Positions 30,940-54,907 of a stretch of DNA of 64,000 nucleotides are shown piece after piece; within the stretch, counting starts at the first letter, position 1, and every line of letters begins with the position of its first letter. The stretch spans positions 2,852,001-2,916,000 of the forward strand of contig NZ_CP048103.1 of NCBI RefSeq assembly GCF_013282215.1, read 5' to 3'. The notes under the pieces are model-generated. The model was not told the origin of the DNA. It saw only the letters and a program-made list of their open reading frames with translations, and did no database searches. Source of the stretch: Kroppenstedtia eburnea (GTDB lineage: Bacteria; Bacillota; Bacilli; Thermoactinomycetales; DSM-45169). A program made the translations under genes and the position numbers.

Positions 30940-33078
30940 TTATACCGACTGTACCGGCATTTCAACATGAGTCGGTAACATGCCCCGATTAAAAAATGTG
31001 GAACTCTTATCCGCATAATTGACCGTGACGGGTAGCCGTGATTTATTTATAGCGTGCACATTCATATAGGATAGTTTGAAAATATCTTCCACAATTTCTT
31101 CCATCTTCAGAGTCCCCGTCCGTTGTTGGATTCGCACCGGCTGGGCCATGCCAAGAAAATCGGCGGGATCCGTGGCACACAGGTAGGCTGTATCTCCCTT
31201 AAGGAGTGCCACACCCATTGGATTTTTCCACGCTCCTTGTTTCTCTTCTCTCATAGCCATTCGTCTACCCGCTTTCTTAACCAAAGAGATATAATCAAAT
31301 TTGATTCCGTGACTCTCTGCAATTCGATTTAAGGCCTCGATCTCCTCCCAATGCCCCTTTCCATCACGATGAAAGGTGATATGATCAGGAACTCGTCGAT
31401 AACGTTTCCGAAAACGAAAAACCGTTTCTGCCACAATCTTTTCTAAGGTTTCCGGTCCAATTTTCTCTCCAGCTTCCACAGAGGTAACGGGTTTGGACCA
31501 AAGCACCCGCCCATCCGTTCCGATGGTCTGAACCACCCCCGCACCATGCTTCCCATCCTCACGACTAACATCCAAACCGATGAAACATGGGGAATATAAC
31601 GGTTCAGACAAGACCCAGGGCTGAATCCCACTCTTTACGTATACTCCCAACAATAGGTTAAGTAAAGCGGTCGACCTTCCTTTTTGTAATTCCAACGTAT
31701 CCATCGTGACCACTTGGGTAGACACGGCGTAATCTTTCCCCAGCACCTGCTTGAGCAATCCATATAAACCTTTGGACAAATTTTTCCGATCCGCCACAAC
31801 GATCAAGGGACAACCAGGCGCTACCTGTTCGGACAACTCCATCAGCTTGACACGTGTATTTTGTGAATCACTGAACTGAATCCGGTGTACGGGTCCTTTC
31901 AAGGTTAGAGGAACACCCAATTGGGCGGAACGTTTCGACAGCTCCTTTTCGATGGGCAAGATGCGTTTCCCCTTCTCTCCTGCGAGAACCTTTCGCAAAA
32001 TATCATCATCCAAAAGGTACTGACAGGCCAACGAAGATTTCGGAGTCTCATGGATCCCTCCGGCAGAAAGCCCACGATAAGGATTCCGATCCTTCCTCCC
32101 CTTTCCGAAAACTAACAAAGGATCAGTAAGAGTGAGCGGGACATAGCCTTTCTTTTTGGCATCCAATCCCCATCGATCAAAAGATAAAGGAAATTCGGCC
32201 TTCTGTTTCCACTGTTGCAAATGATCTTCAGCTGTTAAAAACATGGTTTGCACCCGTTTGGAGGGGGCCAATTTGGACACTTTTTGGGCAGGGGCGGGTA
32301 CCTGATCAAAAGAGCTGACCAGCTTTAGAAACTGCGGTACAAAGGACAGAGGCTTATCTTTATGGTTAAGACATTCTACTGCCGGAGTGTGGTCCGGTAA
32401 AGAATGGACCCAAGATTCCCGACCGTTCGCGATATGGTATTCTTTCAGACTTTGCCCATTTGGCAAAATAGGATCCACGATACTGGATTCCAGCTGTCTC
32501 ACATACCAGTAAGTCTGGTGATCCACTCGGTTGACTACCAAACACTTCGGCTCGATCTTTCCCGGAGCCCGCCTTAACATTTCCTCGATATTTTGCACAT
32601 GTGAATACTGATGAGACAATTCAAAGCCCACAGTGATTCGGCCAGATTCGTCCACATTCATATCAAACTGAAGGTAACGCCTGATTTCAATTCCACCTAC
32701 AACCTGCGTCGGTTTTCTTGGTATGACCTTACCGTAAGAGGCCCGATAATCTGCACGGTTTTGCGATAACTCAAAACTTCTGCTCAAGAGACGTTCCAAC
32801 AACCTTCGTTCCAAGGGAATGGAAGGGTTAATATCTCGCTTCTGCTCTCCCTGAAGTTGAATCTCATCGGAAGCAACCGGCTGAAAGGCTCCAATCAGAT
32901 GTCCGGCGGAAGCGATCGCCCACCCCGGATGATTTCTTCTTAGCTGCCGTACGATGGTAGCCGTCTCTGCCTCAACTTCGGCTTCACCCAAATTTTTAAG
33001 GGGAACTGTATACCAATGAAAGGGGATCTCTTCCGTCCGGGTATCCAACAGCCATTCAGAGAAGAAGTAGCTACTCAC
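30940..33078 (-). CDS. Long prokaryotic Argonaute (PIWI nuclease)
   Basis: A 712-residue protein with the order N - PAZ-like - MID - PIWI. A PAZ-like region lies at about residues 155-255 (ECLNHKDKPLSFVPQFLKLV), MID at about 395-490 and PIWI from about 495. Catalytic residues appear as Asp503 (FIGLDVSRED), a glutamate-finger candidate Glu535 or Glu538, Asp572 (TFHRDGKG) and Asp690 (LPVTVNYADK). The spacings of 69 and 118 residues match active long-A Argonautes, so a DEDD tetrad seems intact. Such proteins use short guides to cut invading DNA or RNA. GTG at 33078 has only a distant AGGAG. It follows the DUF4145-like gene by 27 bases. Base composition is visibly more A+T-rich than the flanking genes, consistent with transfer. 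Confidence 0.88.
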   Translation of the reverse strand: MSSYFFSEWLLDTRTEEIPFHWYTVPLKNLGEAEVEAETATIVRQLRRNHPGWAIASAGHLIGAFQPVASDEIQLQGEQKRDINPSIPLERRLLERLLSRSFELSQNRADYRASYGKVIPRKPTQVVGGIEIRRYLQFDMNVDESGRITVGFELSHQYSHVQNIEEMLRRAPGKIEPKCLVVNRVDHQTYWYVRQLESSIVDPILPNGQSLKEYHIANGRESWVHSLPDHTPAVECLNHKDKPLSFVPQFLKLVSSFDQVPAPAQKVSKLAPSKRVQTMFLTAEDHLQQWKQKAEFPLSFDRWGLDAKKKGYVPLTLTDPLLVFGKGRKDRNPYRGLSAGGIHETPKSSLACQYLLDDDILRKVLAGEKGKRILPIEKELSKRSAQLGVPLTLKGPVHRIQFSDSQNTRVKLMELSEQVAPGCPLIVVADRKNLSKGLYGLLKQVLGKDYAVSTQVVTMDTLELQKGRSTALLNLLLGVYVKSGIQPWVLSEPLYSPCFIGLDVSREDGKHGAGVVQTIGTDGRVLWSKPVTSVEAGEKIGPETLEKIVAETVFRFRKRYRRVPDHITFHRDGKGHWEEIEALNRIAESHGIKFDYISLVKKAGRRMAMREEKQGAWKNPMGVALLKGDTAYLCATDPADFLGMAQPVRIQQRTGTLKMEEIVEDIFKLSYMNVHAINKSRLPVTVNYADKSSTFFNRGMLPTHVEMPVQSV

Positions 33079-33105
33079 TCTTTCGTTTTCACTCCTCGTA
33101 TTTTT

Positions 33106-33900
33106 TCAAAAACCATCGGTCTTCTTGTTCATCAAGTACCAAGATGGCTGCCGGTGAGTTGCCCGGCCGCCTTTGGGGGTGAAGCGGAAGTAAATCTTGC
33201 GTTCTTTAAGGGGAAACAGTACCTTGTTCAGTTCCCAGCCTCCCACTACCCACAGGGTGCCACCGGATTTCCGCTTGTCGATCCATTCCAGGCCTTGCTC
33301 CAGCAGGTATCCGGTGAGAGAAAAGGAGGTGGAATCCGTAATCGTCTTCGGTTCGGCGGTTTGGACCACCGTGGCCGTTGCCGGCTGCCGATGTCTGTTC
33401 AGCACCGATTCCATACTGTTCAATTTCTCATCCAACGCCCGGATGATCACCCGCTCGATCTCTGCCGTGTCCACCCCTCTGTTCACCGGGGGATGGCGGT
33501 AGGGGGGTGCCTGGAAGTCGGCGCTCCCGTACACTTCCGTCCACCAGACTGCCAGTTGGTACAGATGGCGATGGGTCCTCAGGGATTCCTCCACTGTCCC
33601 GTATCCGTTCTGATGGGCGGCTTTGTTTCCTTCCAGCCGGAGCTGTTCCATCGCATCGAAGATCGGCTCGGTGATGATCCCTTCCCGCTTCAACGCCCGG
33701 GTTCGCTCGGCCAGGTTTTCATAGACATCGACGACTCCTTCCTCTTTCAGCAACCAACCCACGATCCCTTCCAGCCATTTGCGGCTTCGGATGAGAGCGG
33801 AGGGCGGATCGTCGTAGACCATCCGCTCCACATCCTCCGCTTCCCTGGCCGCTGCCGGTTGCCATCCATCCAAAAAGGCGAAAAGGGATTGTTCCTTCAT
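33106..33900 (-). CDS. DUF4145-like protein upstream of Argonaute
   Basis: A 264-residue soluble protein. Residues 1-140 (FAFLDGWQPAAAREAEDVER through RLEGNKAAHQNGYGTVEES) match the DUF4145 module, often found at the N-terminus of type I restriction HsdR helicases, here without a helicase. A linker predicted as coiled coil (residues 150-180) is followed by a C-terminal module with EWIDKRKSGGTLWVVGG and YFRFTPKGGRATHRQPSWYL. The gene sits 23 bases after the hsdR stump and 27 bases before the Argonaute, all on one strand. It is either a surviving part of the restriction locus or the Argonaute's partner. Confidence 0.75.
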   Translation of the reverse strand: MKEQSLFAFLDGWQPAAAREAEDVERMVYDDPPSALIRSRKWLEGIVGWLLKEEGVVDVYENLAERTRALKREGIITEPIFDAMEQLRLEGNKAAHQNGYGTVEESLRTHRHLYQLAVWWTEVYGSADFQAPPYRHPPVNRGVDTAEIERVIIRALDEKLNSMESVLNRHRQPATATVVQTAEPKTITDSTSFSLTGYLLEQGLEWIDKRKSGGTLWVVGGWELNKVLFPLKERKIYFRFTPKGGRATHRQPSWYLMNKKTDGF

Positions 33901-33923
33901 ACGATCAATGCCACTCCCCTCGG

Positions 33924-34440
33924 TTAAATTGTTTCCGTTTCACTAAGACACATCAGATGGGCCTGCTTCATGACGGTTTCGACGGCGTCCTTCTGTTGAT
34001 CCGGAGGGTAACCGTATTTTCTCAGCAGTTTTTTGATATTGACCCGCATCTTGGCCTGGACGCTCTTGCGCAGGTTCCAGTCGATGCTCATATCGTTTTT
34101 GATGGCCCGGGTCAGATCCCGTGCGATCTGTTTCAGGATGTCGTCCTCCATCATTTCCTTGGCGGAGCCATTGCTGGCCAGAGCATCATAGAAGGCCACT
34201 TCTTCCTTGGACAGGCCCAAGTCTTCCCCCCGGCGATGAGCCTGGTTCATCTCTTTGGCCAGCTCGATCATCTCCACGATCACCTGGGCCGTCTCTATTG
34301 CCCGGTTCTGGTATTTGATGATCGCTTGCTCCAGCATCTCGGAGAACTTTTTGGCCTGAACCATGTTGTCCCGTTGCACCGCACGAACTTTTCCTTTAAG
34401 CAGGCGGCGGAGCAGATAATCCAATTGACGAACTCTTCCA
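33924..34440 (-). pseudogene. hsdR: 3' remnant of type I restriction gene hsdR
   Basis: The last 170 or so codons of HsdR: VQAKKFSEMLEQAIIKYQNR, MIELAKEMNQAHRRGEDLGL, YDALASNGSAKEMMEDDILK, TRAIKNDMSIDWNLRKSVQA and KLLRKYGYPPDQQKDAVETV. This is the C-terminal domain of EcoR124-type HsdR. The motor and nuclease domains are gone; at about 34440 the sequence runs into the 5' end of the oppositely oriented toxin gene. No hsdM or hsdS is present. Confidence 0.88.
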
Positions 34441-34458: not shown

Positions 34459-36252
34459 TTGGATTTTTTACGTTTGCTCCTTCGAAAGGTAAGAAATAGA
34501 AGGGGTTCCCCCACCGTTGAATATGTGTTTGTGATGGTGGCCGCCGCGATGTTGGCGGGAATTGTGGTCGGAATTGTGAAAAGTGAGCCCGTGCAGGCAT
34601 CCCTACGACAAGTCATTCTTTGCTCTGTTCCCTTCCTTTACGATGAAAACGGAGAACCTTCCTGTAAGGCCGGGAAGTACATGGCCAAAGAAGACCCGGA
34701 GCCGGAACCTCCGGCGGAAGAACCAAATCCTCTTCAATTGGTCACAAAGCCTGATTTTGAATCCACACCTCCGGTAAAGCCGGTGAAAAGCGATCCACCT
34801 TGGTATGAATGTGCACTGAGCTGGGACTGCATCAAGAAAAAAGGGGGAGAGCTTCTTTCCGGCCCCAGTGAAGAAAAGAAAAAGCAGTTGCGTGAAGAAC
34901 GTATAAAAAGGCTTCTTCAGGAAGCACGTCAACATTGTGGAAACGATCAGGAATGCATTGCAAACTATGTCGGGAAGCCGATTGCGTATGATCAGATGGG
35001 AAAACACCCTCAATTCAAAGGTTTGATTGGCTTTTCCAAGCTGATTGGAGCCATCACCGGGGGCGATCCGTTTTTTGAGTTAGTCAGTTTTGGAATGGAT
35101 CATCCCGCATTTACCATCGGTTTAGCCGCAACCATCATTGCTCTCTTTGCCTCCCCTCCCCTTGGGGGAACGATGCTGGTCAGCGGAGCCATTTCCGGCG
35201 GTGTTTCGTGGCTTCAGGGAAACGATCCGGACACCATCCTGCGGGATGCGGGGATCGGTGGATTTGCGGGAGTCTTCGGTTATGGTGTGTTTGCCGGTGT
35301 CACCCGATATGCGGGAGCCCGATTGGCCCAATCCACGCTCAGTCCATTCATACAGAAGTGGTTGCCCAAGATCATCGGCGGCGGCAGTGGTGGAGTGGCG
35401 GATCAATCGGCGTTTGACTGGCTGAGAGATCGCAAATTCGATTGGAGAAGTGCCACCATTGCGGGCATGATCGGCATGCTGATCCCCTATGCCGGAGCGG
35501 TCATCGACGGCGCCCCCGCTCTGGGCAAACAACTGCAACAGATGATCCCCGGTGTCTCCGGCGACGGCACACTGGCCATGCCGTGGGTGAAGAAAAACGG
35601 GCAGGAAGCGGCGGAGGGGTATAACAAGGCCTCGGGTAAAAGTGGTGGGGGTGGCAAACAAGCCGCAGATGATGTCGGTGACATCGTAAGCAAGTCCAAA
35701 AGTGTAGATGAGATCGTGAACGATCTCATCGGGAAAGACATCTCCGAAACATCGTTATATAAGTCTCTTCGTGAAAGGTACGATGAAAAGACAGCAAGGA
35801 AAATTGCTCTTAATCTGGAACGGGGAAATGCCTTCAACGCCAAAATGAGGTCAAAGTATCCTCACAATGAGGTATACGTGAAGTATAAAGACAAGAAAGG
35901 GAGATGGCGGGAAGGAAAAGTCGATTCCTATGATCCAGATAAAGGAGAAATCATATCAAGGAAATATACTCCATTGGCTGATATTCAGTATCAGACAGCC
36001 AGAAACTACATGAACGAATTCTTGACAAAGTATGCTCCCGGAACCAAGATTAAGGATATTCCCACCCAACGTAAAGGATCAGGACATCAGAATGATGGTT
36101 TGGCGGGAGAAAGTCTTGAGGGTGATATGATTTTGGAGGTGCCAGTGCAGAAAAAACCTGTTCCCAGAAATGTTCGGGAATATGCTACCGACCATGATAT
36201 CATCATCAGAGATGAGAAGGGTAAAGTCTATAACCCGGAGGTTTTGGAATGA
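34459..36252 (+). CDS. Polymorphic toxin with prepilin-like N-terminus
   Basis: A 597-residue protein. Residues 1-40 look like a type IV/Flp-type prepilin leader: basic region, RRG16|S17PTVE21Y with Gly at -1 and Glu at +5, then a hydrophobic helix FVMVAAAMLAGIVVGIV. A proline-rich linker (78-113) and a charged helical part follow. A glycine-rich hydrophobic region (195-350) comes next, and a GGGG hinge near 397. The C-terminal 150 residues (GNAFNAKMRSKYPHNEVYVK; DSYDPDKGEIISRKYTPLAD; LEGDMILEVPVQKKPVP) resemble nuclease-type toxin domains at the ends of Bacillus LXG proteins. The last third is more A+T-rich. TTG start at 34459 after AAAAGGAG. Confidence 0.75.
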   Translation: MDFLRLLLRKVRNRRGSPTVEYVFVMVAAAMLAGIVVGIVKSEPVQASLRQVILCSVPFLYDENGEPSCKAGKYMAKEDPEPEPPAEEPNPLQLVTKPDFESTPPVKPVKSDPPWYECALSWDCIKKKGGELLSGPSEEKKKQLREERIKRLLQEARQHCGNDQECIANYVGKPIAYDQMGKHPQFKGLIGFSKLIGAITGGDPFFELVSFGMDHPAFTIGLAATIIALFASPPLGGTMLVSGAISGGVSWLQGNDPDTILRDAGIGGFAGVFGYGVFAGVTRYAGARLAQSTLSPFIQKWLPKIIGGGSGGVADQSAFDWLRDRKFDWRSATIAGMIGMLIPYAGAVIDGAPALGKQLQQMIPGVSGDGTLAMPWVKKNGQEAAEGYNKASGKSGGGGKQAADDVGDIVSKSKSVDEIVNDLIGKDISETSLYKSLRERYDEKTARKIALNLERGNAFNAKMRSKYPHNEVYVKYKDKKGRWREGKVDSYDPDKGEIISRKYTPLADIQYQTARNYMNEFLTKYAPGTKIKDIPTQRKGSGHQNDGLAGESLEGDMILEVPVQKKPVPRNVREYATDHDIIIRDEKGKVYNPEVLE

Positions 36253-36755
36253 AGGTAGAGTTTTACAAAAAGTGGATGATCAGCTTGGGAAAGCCCAGGC
36301 ATCCATTGACTCGGGAAGAAGCCAAAAAGCTGCACGACGAACGGGAATTGTATGTGGTTGTGTTTAAAGAGGAGGAAACGCCGAAGTTTGTAGTACAGAT
36401 GCAGTTCAGAACATGGTATTGTACCGTTCTTCATCTCAATGAGAACAGAAGGGAAAAGATTGTAGAAACCTACGCCGAAATGTACGACATGTACGACAAA
36501 ACAGGTGTTGGCATTCCAAAAGGGATCGAGAACCAGATCTTTCTCAGGAATCGAAAAGAAAAATACTACGATAAGGAAGGCTGGATATCGTTCCTCTTCG
36601 AAACGAGCGGAAAGTATACAAAGGTGTATCACAGTTGGTCGGGAGGAGTGTATCAGGAAGCTGATCAAGGCATCGAACATGTTGACAAGCTGATCAAAGA
36701 CAAACCCGAATTCGGCGATTATTGGGCTCTGTTGCCGGAAGAGAGTTTGTCATAG
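36249..36755 (+). CDS. Probable immunity protein
   Basis: A 168-residue acidic soluble protein whose ATG overlaps the toxin stop as ATGA, the usual arrangement of toxin and immunity genes. It has no signal peptide, so it would act in the cytoplasm. No known immunity family is recognised with certainty; segments such as EGWISFLFETSGKYTKVYHS and an aromatic-rich core fit small alpha/beta immunity folds. A+T-rich like the toxin tip. Ends at a terminator. Confidence 0.72.
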   Translation: MKVEFYKKWMISLGKPRHPLTREEAKKLHDERELYVVVFKEEETPKFVVQMQFRTWYCTVLHLNENRREKIVETYAEMYDMYDKTGVGIPKGIENQIFLRNRKEKYYDKEGWISFLFETSGKYTKVYHSWSGGVYQEADQGIEHVDKLIKDKPEFGDYWALLPEESLS

Positions 36756-36865: not shown

Positions 36866-36898
36866 CGGTTTCCAACAATCGTAAAATGGGATAGAATA
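36866..36898 (+). promoter_or_regulatory. Conserved promoter/operator block of receptor cassette 1
   Basis: CGGTTTCCAACAATCGT, seven bases, then GATAGAATA. TTTCCA (36869-36874) and TAGAAT (36892-36897) are 17 bases apart and would serve as -35 and -10. The identical block occurs before cassette 2 at 38488-38520, with a different 7-base filler. Confidence 0.7.
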
Positions 36899-36936
36899 TT
36901 GGTAGTGTTCAACCTGTTTGGAGAGGTGAGAGGGAT

Positions 36937-38244
36937 TTGAATACCCTGGAAGTTCACGATCTCGGCGAAATTATTCGAAAGGTGCGAAAGGAGAGGGGAT
37001 TGCGGCTGGAGGATCTGGCTGATGAGAACATCTCCCCCGCCACCATCAGCAACGTGGAACGGGGGGTTCCCCATGTCGGCCACGAGAAAGCGCTCTATTT
37101 GATCAACAAGCTGGGAATTGAACTGAGTCAGGTTCCCGAATTGTTGCATGGACAGCAGCTGGAGTTGAAACAACTGCAAAAAAGCTTGTTCCAAATGGAG
37201 TGTCTGTGTGATTCGGGGGACCCGCGTCAAGCATTAAAAAAACTGGACAAGCTGGAGCTCGAAAATTCACACCCCTACGCGGACTACTATTACTATATCA
37301 AAGGAAAAAGCCACAGTCGCCTGAAAAACTGGTCCAGGGCGGAACGGGCCCTGTTCAATGCTGTCCGCCTGGGAAGCCAGACCGACACCAATATTGAAGC
37401 CTCCGCATTTGCGGAATTAAGCCTGGTCTCCTACTATCAGAATGATCTGGAGACGGCTCTCAAGTACGCCAACAGCGGGATCGATGCCTTTACTGACAAC
37501 GGAAGCCGTTCACACACCATCCATGTCCTGAAACGGAACAAGGCCATCTATCTGGAACGGCTGGGCCGGCTGGGGGAGGCGCTCGGCGTCGTCCATGAGG
37601 TGTGGGACTCCCTTGAGAAGATGGAACAGGTGGAGACCAAGCTGACCTTTTACTGGTTGCGCGCCGAACTGTCCCGGCGAACCGGTGTTTATAATGAAGC
37701 GATCAAGTATGCGGAAGAAGGACTGGAGCTGGCCCGGTTTAACTACCAGCATTTATCGATGTTCGATCTCTGGATCGTCCTGGCCGGAGTCTATATGGAG
37801 TTGAAAGAATGGGATCAGGCGGAGAATTACTACAGTATGGCACTGAGCCTGGAAGGAAAGCTTTCCGAAGAAGATAAAAAGAAGTTTATTGACACATATG
37901 CCAACTTGGGACTTCTCTATATGAAACAAAACAAAATGGAACTGGCTTATAAGGCCTTAAATGAAGCAATCCGCCTCGGTAAAAAAAATAATGATGCGCC
38001 ACACCTGTCTTATGCATTACAGGCAATGGGTAACTTTCAAAGAGTGCAAAACAATGTGCAAGAAGCTATTACCTACTATCAAGAAGGACTGGAGATTGCC
38101 CGAAAACATCAACTGAAAAAGAGAGAGTATGAGATACTCCTCTATTTGGCACAGTGTTTTGAAAATGTGGATGAGCAGGAATTTGGGAAACTGACGCGGA
38201 ATATGTATAAAATACAACTCGAAATAAAGAATGATGGGAGGTGA
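36937..38244 (+). CDS. XRE-TPR peptide-responsive regulator 1 (RRNPP-like)
   Basis: A 435-residue protein. Residues 5-65 are an XRE helix-turn-helix: IRKVRKERGLRLEDLADENI then SPATISNVERG. The rest is a chain of TPR-like helical repeats (for example DYYYYIKGKSHSRLKNWSRA, AFAELSLVSYYQNDLETALK, YANLGLLYMKQNKMELAYKA). This HTH-plus-TPR order is that of PlcR, NprR and related RRNPP receptors, which bind a re-imported peptide in the TPR groove. A 44-residue exported-peptide gene starts six bases after the stop. TTG start at 36937 after AGAGGG. Confidence 0.88.
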   Translation: MNTLEVHDLGEIIRKVRKERGLRLEDLADENISPATISNVERGVPHVGHEKALYLINKLGIELSQVPELLHGQQLELKQLQKSLFQMECLCDSGDPRQALKKLDKLELENSHPYADYYYYIKGKSHSRLKNWSRAERALFNAVRLGSQTDTNIEASAFAELSLVSYYQNDLETALKYANSGIDAFTDNGSRSHTIHVLKRNKAIYLERLGRLGEALGVVHEVWDSLEKMEQVETKLTFYWLRAELSRRTGVYNEAIKYAEEGLELARFNYQHLSMFDLWIVLAGVYMELKEWDQAENYYSMALSLEGKLSEEDKKKFIDTYANLGLLYMKQNKMELAYKALNEAIRLGKKNNDAPHLSYALQAMGNFQRVQNNVQEAITYYQEGLEIARKHQLKKREYEILLYLAQCFENVDEQEFGKLTRNMYKIQLEIKNDGR

Positions 38245-38249
38245 ATTTT

Positions 38250-38384
38250 TTGAACAAGGGTAAAAGACTTCTGATTGCACTCATTCCCGTGTTGTTTGTA
38301 TCAAGCATCGCTTTTACTTTACCTTCCCAGTCCGCTCAAGTCGCATCCACTTCTCCCACAGCTGGTCAACCAGGCCGATCATGA
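38250..38384 (+). CDS. Exported signalling pro-peptide 1 (44 residues)
   Basis: An unannotated small gene just downstream of receptor 1. TTG at 38250 has GGGAGGTG upstream, provided by the receptor's stop region. The product has a Lys/Arg-rich start (NKGKRLL), a hydrophobic helix IALIPVLFVSSIAFTLPS, then a Ser/Thr/Pro/Gln-rich tail QSAQVASTSPTAGQPGRS with a plausible cleavage after a small residue. This is the layout of Phr, PapR and NprX precursors, whose C-terminal tail yields the mature signal. A strong terminator follows. Confidence 0.78.
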   Translation: MNKGKRLLIALIPVLFVSSIAFTLPSQSAQVASTSPTAGQPGRS

Positions 38385-38399
38385 TCACATCTCCACCCC

Positions 38400-38440
38400 C
38401 AAAAAAACCGGAGCAGGGTCCGACCCTGGTCCGGTTTTTG
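38400..38440 (+). terminator. Terminator of receptor-peptide cassette 1
   Basis: AAAAAACCGGA-N2-AGGGT-CCG-ACCCT-N2-TCCGGTTTTTG, a long two-part stem with a T run. Confidence 0.88.
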
Positions 38441-38487
38441 TATACGGATTTCCACGATCATCGATTTCCTTTGTCAACCGGCTGATT

Positions 38488-38520
38488 CGGTTTCCAACAA
38501 TCGTCATATACGATAGAATA
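38488..38520 (+). promoter_or_regulatory. Conserved promoter/operator block of receptor cassette 2
   Basis: CGGTTTCCAACAATCGT, seven bases, GATAGAATA; identical in the fixed positions to 36866-36898 although the bases around it differ, which points to selection on a binding site. Confidence 0.7.
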
Positions 38521-38564
38521 GCGTTAAACAAGCTCCAATCCAATCAACGAAGGTGGGATTCCTC

Positions 38565-39893
38565 TTGAAAACCCTTGAAGTTCACGACATCGGCGAAATA
38601 ATCCGAAAGGTGCGAAAGGAAAGGGGATTGCGGCTGGAGGATCTGGCCGATGAGAATATCTCCCCCGCCACCATCAGCAACGTGGAACGGGGCGTACCCC
38701 ATGTCGGCCGTGAAAAAGCCCTCTATCTGATCAAAAAACTGGAGATCGATCTCGACCGGGTGCAGGAGTTGTTGCAGGGACAGCAATTGGAGCTGGAACG
38801 GATGGAAAAAGCGTTGTTCCGGGCAGAATGTCTGCAGGATCTGGGCGATCCGCGCCAAGCCTTGAAAAAGCTGGCCAAACTGGAGGTAAAAAATTCCCAT
38901 CCCTTTGCCTCCTATTATTACTACATACTCGGTAAGTGTCACAACCGCCTCGGACACTGGGCCAAAGCCGAACGGGCTCTGTTCAATGCCCTTCGCCTCG
39001 GGGATGAATCCGACACCAACATCATCTCAGCCGCTTATACGGAATTGAGTCTCTTGAGTTACTATCAGAATGATTTGGAAGCGGCTCTGAAGTACATCAA
39101 CAACGGGATCCAGGCTTTCAAAAACAACCGGGACCGCCCCCAGTTCAAATATATCATGCAACGAAACAAGGCCATCTATCTGGAGAGACTGGGGCGGTTG
39201 GGGGAAGCGATCAACATCGTCCACGAAGTTTGGGACTCCCTCGGGGAGATCGAACAAATCGAGACCAAGCTCTCCTTCTACTGGTTGCGGTCTGAACTGT
39301 CCCAGCGCACCGGTGTTTACCAGGAAGCGATCCAATATGCTGAAGCCGGGCTGGAACTGGCGCGCTTTAATTACCAGCCTTCCCATATGTTCGATCTGTG
39401 GATCGTGTTGGCCGAAGTATACATGAAACAAGGGGATTGGGAACAGGCGGAGGAATGCTTTGATTTGGCACTCACTCTGCGGGGAAAGATCAGCAGTTCG
39501 GACCGGGACAAGTTTATTACCGCCTATTCCCGCTTGGGACTTCTTTATATGAAATTAAATCGGCAAGAAGAAGCCGCCGAAATGCTGGAAAAAGCGATCC
39601 GTCTCGGGGAAAGTTGTGACGATGTCCCCCGTCTCACCACCGCATTGCATCTGATGGGAGATTTTCACCTGCAGCAAAACAAAAGGGAAGAAGCGGCTGT
39701 TTACTATCGCCGGGAGCTGGAGATGGCCCGGAAACATCATTTGAAAAAAAAGGAGTATCAAGCTCTGCTCCGTTTGGCGCAGTGTTTTGAAAATGTGGAC
39801 GAGCAGGAATTTGCGCGCCTGACACGAAGAATGTATAAAGTGCAACTAGAATTGACATCTGAGGAGGGCGCAATTGGTGAGGAAGTGGAGTAA
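38565..39893 (+). CDS. XRE-TPR peptide-responsive regulator 2 (RRNPP-like)
   Basis: A 442-residue paralogue of the 36937-38244 protein. The helix-turn-helix is almost identical, and the TPR region is clearly similar but diverged, most where a peptide groove would lie. TTG at 38565 is chosen by alignment with receptor 1 (KTLEVHDIGEIIRK against NTLEVHDLGEIIRK) and the AAGGTGGG site; an in-frame GTG at 38553 would be too close to that site. Its last codons overlap the second peptide gene. Confidence 0.88.
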   Translation: MKTLEVHDIGEIIRKVRKERGLRLEDLADENISPATISNVERGVPHVGREKALYLIKKLEIDLDRVQELLQGQQLELERMEKALFRAECLQDLGDPRQALKKLAKLEVKNSHPFASYYYYILGKCHNRLGHWAKAERALFNALRLGDESDTNIISAAYTELSLLSYYQNDLEAALKYINNGIQAFKNNRDRPQFKYIMQRNKAIYLERLGRLGEAINIVHEVWDSLGEIEQIETKLSFYWLRSELSQRTGVYQEAIQYAEAGLELARFNYQPSHMFDLWIVLAEVYMKQGDWEQAEECFDLALTLRGKISSSDRDKFITAYSRLGLLYMKLNRQEEAAEMLEKAIRLGESCDDVPRLTTALHLMGDFHLQQNKREEAAVYYRRELEMARKHHLKKKEYQALLRLAQCFENVDEQEFARLTRRMYKVQLELTSEEGAIGEEVE

Positions 39894-40017
39894 AAAAATT
39901 CTGATCGCCATCATCCCTGCATTATTCATTGTGACGGCTGTATGGGCCATTTCACAACCGGACCCCGTTCCCGTGCATACGATAGCCGGTGACAGCAGTA
40001 ATCCGGGGGCCGGATAA
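39877..40017 (+). CDS. Exported signalling pro-peptide 2 (46 residues)
   Basis: An unannotated small gene overlapping the end of receptor 2 by 17 bases in another frame. GTG at 39877 (or TTG at 39874) is preceded by GAGGAGGG. The product begins RKWSKKILIAIIPALFIVTA and continues VWAISQPDPVPVHTIAGDSS to NPGAG. The start shares the pattern K-K/R-[IL]-L-I-A-x-I-P-x-L-F with peptide 1, while the tails differ completely. That is expected for two specific signals. Confidence 0.78.
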   Translation: MRKWSKKILIAIIPALFIVTAVWAISQPDPVPVHTIAGDSSNPGAG

Positions 40018-40025
40018 ACATGATA

Positions 40026-40068
40026 AGCCGGGCGGGAAAATCCAACTCTCGCCCGGCTGTTTGTGTTT
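40026..40068 (+). terminator. Terminator of receptor-peptide cassette 2
   Basis: AGCCGGGCGGGA-N9-TCTCGCCCGGCT followed by GTTTGTGTTT. Confidence 0.82.
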
Positions 40069-54723: not shown

Positions 54724-54907
54724 CCTCGGTCCCTCCTCTACTTCTCCTGTCGTAACTTTCATTATACAACAGGTGGATCTCCCGCCATCCCCTCAACTGT
54801 GGCAAACCGGAAACAATGGAGTGCCCCCGGAATTTTAAATTCTCATTCCCTCTTCGCTTCCGTTGTTGTACAGTAAAGAAAATGATGGATGAAATGAGGG
54901 GAGCGGA

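Follow-up and report, generated by a model that had tools for sequence, protein, structure and literature searches.

Two tandem candidate receptor-pheromone cassettes of the RRNPP type in Kroppenstedtia eburnea and their receptor family in Thermoactinomycetales

Introduction

In the NprR-NprX system of peptide quorum sensing, the propeptide gene of NprX is located downstream of that of its receptor NprR, a protein of double function that binds DNA as well as Spo0F, on which Rap proteins act too. Here we describe two operons of Kroppenstedtia eburnea, in each of which the gene for a receptor with a helix-turn-helix (HTH) and tetratricopeptide repeats (TPRs) is combined with a tiny propeptide gene. 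Arranged head to tail, the operons occupy 36868-40058 of the window, i.e., the whole 64-kb stretch that was read (contig NZ_CP048103.1, positions 2,852,001 to 2,916,000), and each very probably represents a peptide quorum-sensing pair of the RRNPP type, whose peptide would be exported, trimmed, imported and bound by its receptor.

RRNPP systems have been delimited by a receptor of 250-500 aa with TPRs and an optional N-terminal HTH and by a propeptide of 10-100 aa positioned between -60 and +400 bp relative to it (PMC10075063). Both cassettes agree with this description in receptor size (435 and 442 aa), domains, propeptide length (44 and 46 aa) and distance. In the same source, RRNPP_detector systems are reported for Thermoactinomycetaceae in an enumeration of biosynthetic clusters (n = 4). 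We found no study of this receptor-propeptide family in the open literature, supplementary tables excepted.

The AloR-AloP systems of Paenibacillaceae resemble the Kroppenstedtia cassettes in that many HTH-TPR paralogs occur per genome, with the same gene order and some orphans, and in that the receptor gene is mostly followed directly by a 32-50 aa open reading frame (ORF) with a secretion leader; the mature AloP piece comprises about six C-terminal residues, SHGRGG in the case of Alo13 (PMC7425212). The Alo TPRs are described as divergent (PMC7425212), whereas the Kroppenstedtia receptors give strong matches to Pfam TPR models. NprR-NprX and the other nine-TPR 'clan B' receptors are alike in joining an HTH to a long, non-degenerate TPR array (PMC12700828). 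Among the Rap-Phr systems, that of phage phi105 uses the hexapeptide ERPVGT, in which proline again occupies position -4, and repeated pheromone copies, of a kind also seen here, mark multi-pheromone precursors (PMC11343458).

Results

Layout of the two cassettes

Each operon runs from a promoter block through a receptor gene with a TTG start and a propeptide gene that overlaps or abuts the receptor stop to a strong hairpin (Table 1). The preliminary description of this DNA had claimed two HTH-TPR receptors and, behind each of them, a very small gene encoding an export-type peptide, and both claims hold. The HTH_3 domain occupies approximately residues 13-64 (13-64 in receptor 2), TPR repeats extend across much of the remainder, and the two receptors are 67-68% identical. 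The propeptide starts listed are the most likely choice, each being located directly 3′ of a GGAGG-like ribosome binding site, and each propeptide has one alternative earlier in-frame start (GTG at 38241 for propeptide 1 and TTG at 39874 for propeptide 2). Relative to the end of the receptor gene, the propeptide gene starts 6 nt after it in cassette 1 and 16 nt before it in cassette 2. The leader of both propeptides consists of basic residues followed by an 11-residue hydropathy maximum of 3.2, hydropathy being used as a proxy for a Sec-type leader. The common start reported for the two peptides was found as the stretch KR/KK-[LI]LIA-[LI]IP-x-LF, while their ends read AGQPGRS and SSNPGAG.

The same promoter block had been said to precede each pair, and the pattern GTTTCCA-N4-TCGT-N9-TARAAT indeed matches upstream of both receptors with 0 mismatches, no other site in the genome matching it with 2 mismatches or fewer. 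Each pair also ends in its own hairpin, as had been stated for its terminator, with folding energies of -27.9 kcal/mol in cassette 1 and -31.6 kcal/mol in cassette 2, each of which beats 200 of 200 shuffles. A simple terminator scan lists the first hairpin only, and its overall count of 5 is near chance (shuffle mean 4.1). The sigma-type scan lists both promoter blocks, with an overall count about equal to that of shuffles.

Table 1. Features of the two cassettes (positions in the window)
Feature	Position	Strand	Basis
Promoter block, cassette 1 (TTTCCA, 17 nt spacer, TAGAAT)	36868..36897	+	Exact block match; motif learned upstream of 80 receptors; held-out test; sigma-type scan
Receptor 1, HTH + TPR, 435 aa, TTG start	36937..38244	+	HTH_3 and TPR models above cut-off
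Propeptide 1, 44 aa, TTG start; predicted signal, C-terminal GQPGRS	38250..38384	+	Start choice: ribosome binding site
Terminator hairpin, cassette 1, with T run	38403..38439	+	Folding z -4.9; inner stem 38416-38432 in terminator scan
Promoter block, cassette 2	38490..38519	+	Exact block match; learned motif; held-out test; sigma-type scan
Receptor 2, HTH + TPR, 442 aa, TTG start	38565..39893	+	HTH_3 and TPR models above cut-off; structure model, mean pLDDT 91.8
Propeptide 2, 46 aa, GTG start, overlapping receptor stop; predicted signal, C-terminal SNPGAG	39877..40017	+	Start choice: ribosome binding site
Terminator-like hairpin, cassette 2, weak T tract	40026..40058	+	Folding z -7.6; absent from terminator-scan list

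A small ORF recurs behind the receptors

Behind 83 receptors of ten genomes (L012 and short fragments excluded), we searched for ORFs that start between -60 and +30 relative to the receptor stop and encode 28-80 aa with a basic start, a hydrophobic core and a hydrophilic tail. Such an ORF is present at 54 of the 83 receptors versus 7 of 412 control ORFs, i.e., other ORFs with 170 codons or more (Fisher p 8e-43), and it arises in 37 of 1660 dinucleotide shuffles. Proline occurs within the last seven residues in 53 of the 54 receptor-associated ORFs, in 2 of the 7 control ORFs and in 11 of the 37 shuffle ORFs. Among 41 further loci of the order, 8 pass the same filter; these 41 are part of the 79 loci of the named-genome set described below, most of the remainder being genes already represented in the ten genomes. 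A propeptide of T. vulgaris (L134) was missed by the filter and found by eye, and stands outside all small-ORF counts.

Of 62 candidates, 59 overlap the receptor gene and 53 lie in the +1 frame, which suggests that translation of the propeptide is coupled to that of the receptor. Two candidates that look spurious (L006 and L106), both counted within the 54 of 83, were dropped, leaving 60 propeptides. In K. eburnea itself, an export-type peptide ORF was located at the receptor stop of 8 of 13 receptors by scan and reading, which gave none at L003, L006, L009, L010 and L012.

The propeptides end in a common C-terminal code

Proline occupies position -4 in 52 of the 60 propeptides, versus a mean of 6.9 and a maximum of 17 in 2000 trials with shuffled tails, and is third from the end in 7 more. 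The residue before it is E, D, N or Q in 44 of 60 and the commonest residue after it is G, so that the consensus of the tail reads S-[E/D/N]-P-G-x-x. The two window peptides had been described as differing in tails that are Ser/Pro-rich; the tails do differ, only proline and glycine being common to GQPGRS and SNPGAG, but they are not simply Ser/Pro-rich, since their last six residues follow the family-wide pattern. The tail motif is repeated in 9 of the 60 propeptides (e.g., SEDPGMS three times, NSEPGGL three times, GNPGEY and SKPGGH), and the T. vulgaris propeptide, with four copies of QSEPGGL, is a tenth case. Within each of the ten genomes all tails are distinct (50 propeptides, a set that includes the spurious L006 but none of the tails encoded after broken receptors).

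The peptides of AimR-AimP and of RRNPP_detector subfamily 08 are reported to share a motif, DPG, that resembles the [E/D/N]PG found here; their receptors belong to clan C, with degenerate TPRs, and occur in phages and Paenibacillaceae (PMC12700828). The tail code described above appears in none of the literature that we found and is new in this respect; the receptor family, for its part, has an order-specific spread.

Selection, covariation and the age of the duplication

Five pairs of orthologous propeptides from two Kroppenstedtia species gave a pooled pN of 0.22 and pS of 0.41, which points to moderate purifying selection in frame; in four of the pairs, dN/dS was 0.73, 0.42, 0.57 and 0.15. 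The identity between receptors in their TPR part correlates with the identity between their tails (Mantel r 0.33, p 0.0005), and the correlation persists without pairs of >50% identity (r 0.21, p 0.0045).

A tree of 80 receptors groups the window pair with its two K. guangzhouensis counterparts in a single supported clade, which is divided by cassette and not by species. The tandem duplication therefore predates the split of the Kroppenstedtia species, in both of which both cassette receptors are open. These data bear on the suggestion, made in the preliminary description, that the cassettes may be two insulated signaling channels. The cassettes could instead be redundant, with each receptor accepting the peptide of the other, which would be compatible with two RRNPP-type pairs. 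The receptor identity of 67-68%, the same promoter and the near-identical HTH suit such an exchange, and the counterpart tails of K. guangzhouensis, SNPGSG and SNPGTT, share 4 of 6 residues; the persistence of both copies in both species since before their split speaks against it, as do the window tails, with only two residues in common. We regard redundancy as the less probable outcome, albeit one of appreciable weight.

The receptor model resembles NprR and Rap

Receptor 2 was modeled from an alignment of 55 sequences. The top match by VIA-align was apo NprR (5dbk, Z 27.8 over 347 residues, rmsd 5.0, 16% identity), followed by LGN (5a6c, Z 27.2), a phage Rap (8rst, 26.2), NprR with NprX (26.0) and RapF (24.9); Rap of phi105 was matched as well (8rte, Z 22.7). 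Foldseek ranked LGN and designed TPRs first and Rap at rank 34, and a PDB profile search returned NprR (4gpk, E 9e-11) and RapF among matches to many other TPR proteins. The modeled fold fits the RRNPP type, with TPR proteins generally scoring nearly equal. Besides its low sequence identity, NprR differs by its peptide code, and a large lineage-specific expansion is found on the side of the Kroppenstedtia family.

Promoters and DNA-binding helices are alike

The regions upstream of 80 receptors have a common motif, ATTTCCA, next to which stands a weaker TCGT and then TATAAAAT or TAGAAT at -10. With five genomes used for training and the remaining five for testing, the motif scored >10 bits at 24 of 40 held-out receptor promoters versus 8 of 409 controls, in a test that is not fully blind because the string from which training started was picked after promoters of both halves had been seen. 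Where the -10 half was good, the TTTCCA half was so too in 17 of 30 receptor promoters versus 6 of 49 controls. The TTTCCA element may be an operator or merely an unusual -35. Away from the receptors, the second-best match of the motif within the window (18.9 bits) is located at 54845-54878 on the forward strand, possibly by chance.

Within genomes, the HTH part of the receptors is 67% identical on average versus 38% for the TPR part, and is the more similar one in 334 of 334 pairs. The recognition helix SPATISN[I/V/L]ERG is nearly invariant, its five commonest forms alone accounting for 67 of 80 receptors, and receptors 1 and 2 are almost alike in both recognition helix and promoter. Together with the distinct tails, these similarities hint that many signals are read onto similar DNA sites. 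Rap proteins are devoid of an HTH according to PMC12700828, whereas the most conserved part of the Kroppenstedtia receptors is their HTH_3 domain.

An alternative is that the receptors are mainly protein-binding switches in the style of Rap or NprR, acting for example on a phosphorelay, with the HTH being secondary. NprR and Rap are the closest solved RRNPP folds, and no strong DNA targets were found past the cassettes' own promoters in the genome-wide pattern scans, both of which observations would suit a switch of this kind; the strong conservation of the HTH and the near invariance of its helix argue against it, and we consider it unlikely. We tentatively raise the possibility, itself rather doubtful, that the receptor paralogs of a genome, each with its own S-[E/D/N]-P-G-x-x pheromone, share one operator class (TTTCCA plus -10), on which about a dozen private signals would converge and compete. 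Were this true, it would be a transcription-factor counterpart to the convergent Rap network.

A regulon could not be derived from the promoter block. Two genome-wide patterns gave exact matches only at both window promoters and at locus L005, the promoter of which is a relative of the window block. A further three matches were weaker, one having 1 mismatch and the others 2, and unconvincing; the surrounding ORFs were inspected for one of them (L118) only, and another lies inside the receptor gene of L012.

Copies and spread of the receptor family

The K. eburnea genome (3.56 Mb, one contig) harbors 10 full-length receptors of the family, including the window pair, as well as one distant receptor of 31% identity and two others that are broken by frame changes or a stop. 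The two cassettes originally reported are thus real, but the number was understated, as they account for two of at least 10 receptors in the genome. The two broken receptors, L114 (C1:2677423-2679856) and L115 (1012360-1014763), are still followed by open propeptide genes with the ends SDQPGPW and ARDPIES; the signal may be retained without an intact receptor, or there may be sequencing errors.

With receptor 2 as query, 10 of 10 genomes from the taxonomic family, representing 7 genera, gave relatives (2 to 15 matches per genome). Named genomes were scanned with a profile of 26 receptors by way of two HTH patterns, which distant families would escape; this gave 84 relatives in genera including Kroppenstedtia, Melghirimyces, Paludifilum, Marininema, Thermoactinomyces, Laceyella and Shimazuella, all of which we take to belong to Thermoactinomycetaceae, plus metagenome-assembled genomes, one of them labelled Bacillota; the named-genome set comprises the best 80 of the 84 relatives at 79 loci. 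The same profile matches 42 of 42 Thermoactinomycetales genomes (27 genera, 1 to 30 matches each, fragments included). In a class sample of 299 genomes, 27 genomes of the order match, and elsewhere 2 of 272, both with partial TPR matches (at E 1e-15). The Alo receptors, in contrast, are essentially confined to Paenibacillaceae according to PMC7425212.

Genome G002 has three tandem receptors, one of them with a peptide, and G009 has a convergent pair (loci L068 and L054), showing that local receptor duplication recurs. A phage origin was considered and rejected, as no relative of receptor 2 was present among viral contigs or phage records. A plasmid origin was likewise dropped: four plasmid records match receptor 2, and one alone, from Staphylospora marina (23% identity), covers most of the query. 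No propeptide is listed directly behind this gene in a gene table that is incomplete. Two genes in the vicinity of that for the TPR protein (L220, NZ_CP034119.1, 29577-31007) carry helix-turn-helix regulator annotations.

Genes beside the cassettes

We surveyed the neighbors of the 79 loci for ORFs of at least 70 codons within flanks of up to 2.5 kb, forming clusters of at least 4 loci. ABC-type ATPases lie near 8 of the 79 loci, 3 of these with a peptide, at differing positions and mostly with 22-32% mutual identity. Scans with a defence library and with family models gave nothing that ties the neighbor genes to the cassettes.

The neighborhood is relevant to another explanation, in which the small peptides are secreted products in their own right, such as membrane peptides or bacteriocin-like ones, with no role for the HTH-TPR protein other than to regulate their expression. 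An exported small peptide behind an XRE-type regulator is equally the arrangement of bacteriocin operons, and a dedicated target gene is missing among the neighbors of the 79 loci. However, no single immunity or exporter gene recurs there, the ABC-type ATPases being diverse and scattered. Moreover, the propeptides are conserved in their six C-terminal residues, around a single proline, and this piece is repeated as in Phr precursors (PMC11343458), and the tails covary with the receptors. We therefore consider such independent products highly improbable.

Relatives of the receptors with no peptide detected, in Shimazuella, Baia, Croceifilum and a Thermoactinomyces (L175, L181, L183, L194, L195 and L197), are located near genes of one cluster. 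In L175 this cluster is spoIIIAA-spoIIIAB, and the upstream position was seen in L175 only; a link to sporulation is possible. Elsewhere in the window, a prokaryotic Argonaute with a Piwi domain is encoded at 30940-33078 on the reverse strand (PADLOC pAgo model, E 2e-237), and its start overlaps a divergent 303-aa ORF (33016-33927, forward strand) without a Pfam or PADLOC match. A 597-aa protein encoded at 34459-36755 on the forward strand has DUF4244 at its N-terminal end and no other match, and the stop of its gene overlaps a 168-aa gene. The two genes look like a secreted toxin-immunity pair, a resemblance that no family match backs.

Discussion

Our analysis establishes the gene layout of the two cassettes, their promoter block and hairpins, the conservation of the small ORF and the tail code. 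The assignment to RRNPP-type pairs made in the preliminary description is supported by the conserved small ORF, by moderate purifying selection in its frame and by the NprR/Rap-like fold of the receptor; neither of the outcomes named there as speaking against it, relatives devoid of a conserved small ORF or small ORFs free of purifying selection, was observed. In the route that we propose, the propeptide would be exported via its basic-hydrophobic leader, and proteases would release the C-terminal six or so residues around the conserved proline, i.e., GQPGRS and SNPGAG. The peptide would be re-imported by an oligopeptide permease, six OppA-type (SBP_bac_5) binding proteins being present in the genome, and would then bind in the TPR groove of the receptor that its own operon encodes, as the covariation of receptors and tails and the fold suggest. 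Binding is predicted to alter the contact of the HTH with a site overlapping TTTCCA/-35 of its own promoter and possibly of related promoters. The family probably expanded in Thermoactinomycetales by duplication, in the course of which the tails would have diversified but the promoter architecture and the helix that binds DNA would have remained similar.

Several observations weigh against this proposal. No ORF passing the filter was found at 29 of the 83 receptors of the ten genomes and at 33 of the 41 loci elsewhere in the order, although 54 of the 83 carry one. The peptide-less receptors are scattered over the tree with 22 changes, 17 of which are forced by supported branches, compared with 24.9 for shuffled labels; this scatter fits repeated loss or peptides missed by the filter. 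The propeptides of L002/L047 align poorly, are identical at just 14 of 45 aligned positions and have different tails, being too diverged for dN/dS, and the value of 0.73 given above belongs to the L001/L047 pair. LGN, a eukaryotic TPR protein, is about level with NprR among the structural matches (Z 27.2 versus 27.8), and because it scores as high, the fold alone cannot single out RRNPP. On the output side, the survey of the 79 loci tied no output gene to the cassettes, the neighbors recurring only in syntenic ortholog groups with the exception of the ABC-type ATPases, and the full promoter block was found by the whole-genome pattern scan at no gene other than the two cassettes. With these points taken into account, we still judge an RRNPP-type pair in each cassette to be very probable.

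RRNPP systems with many paralogs are already known, and what the Kroppenstedtia family appears to add is the tail code and the order-specific spread. Thermoactinomycetales thereby gain a large set of likely peptide signals, apparently unstudied judging by our literature search. As the C-terminal code is simple, the active peptides would be predictable and cheap to synthesize. Since the DNA-binding parts stay alike while the signals diverge, the family would also offer a natural test of how signaling channels originate by duplication and of whether their insulation lasts.

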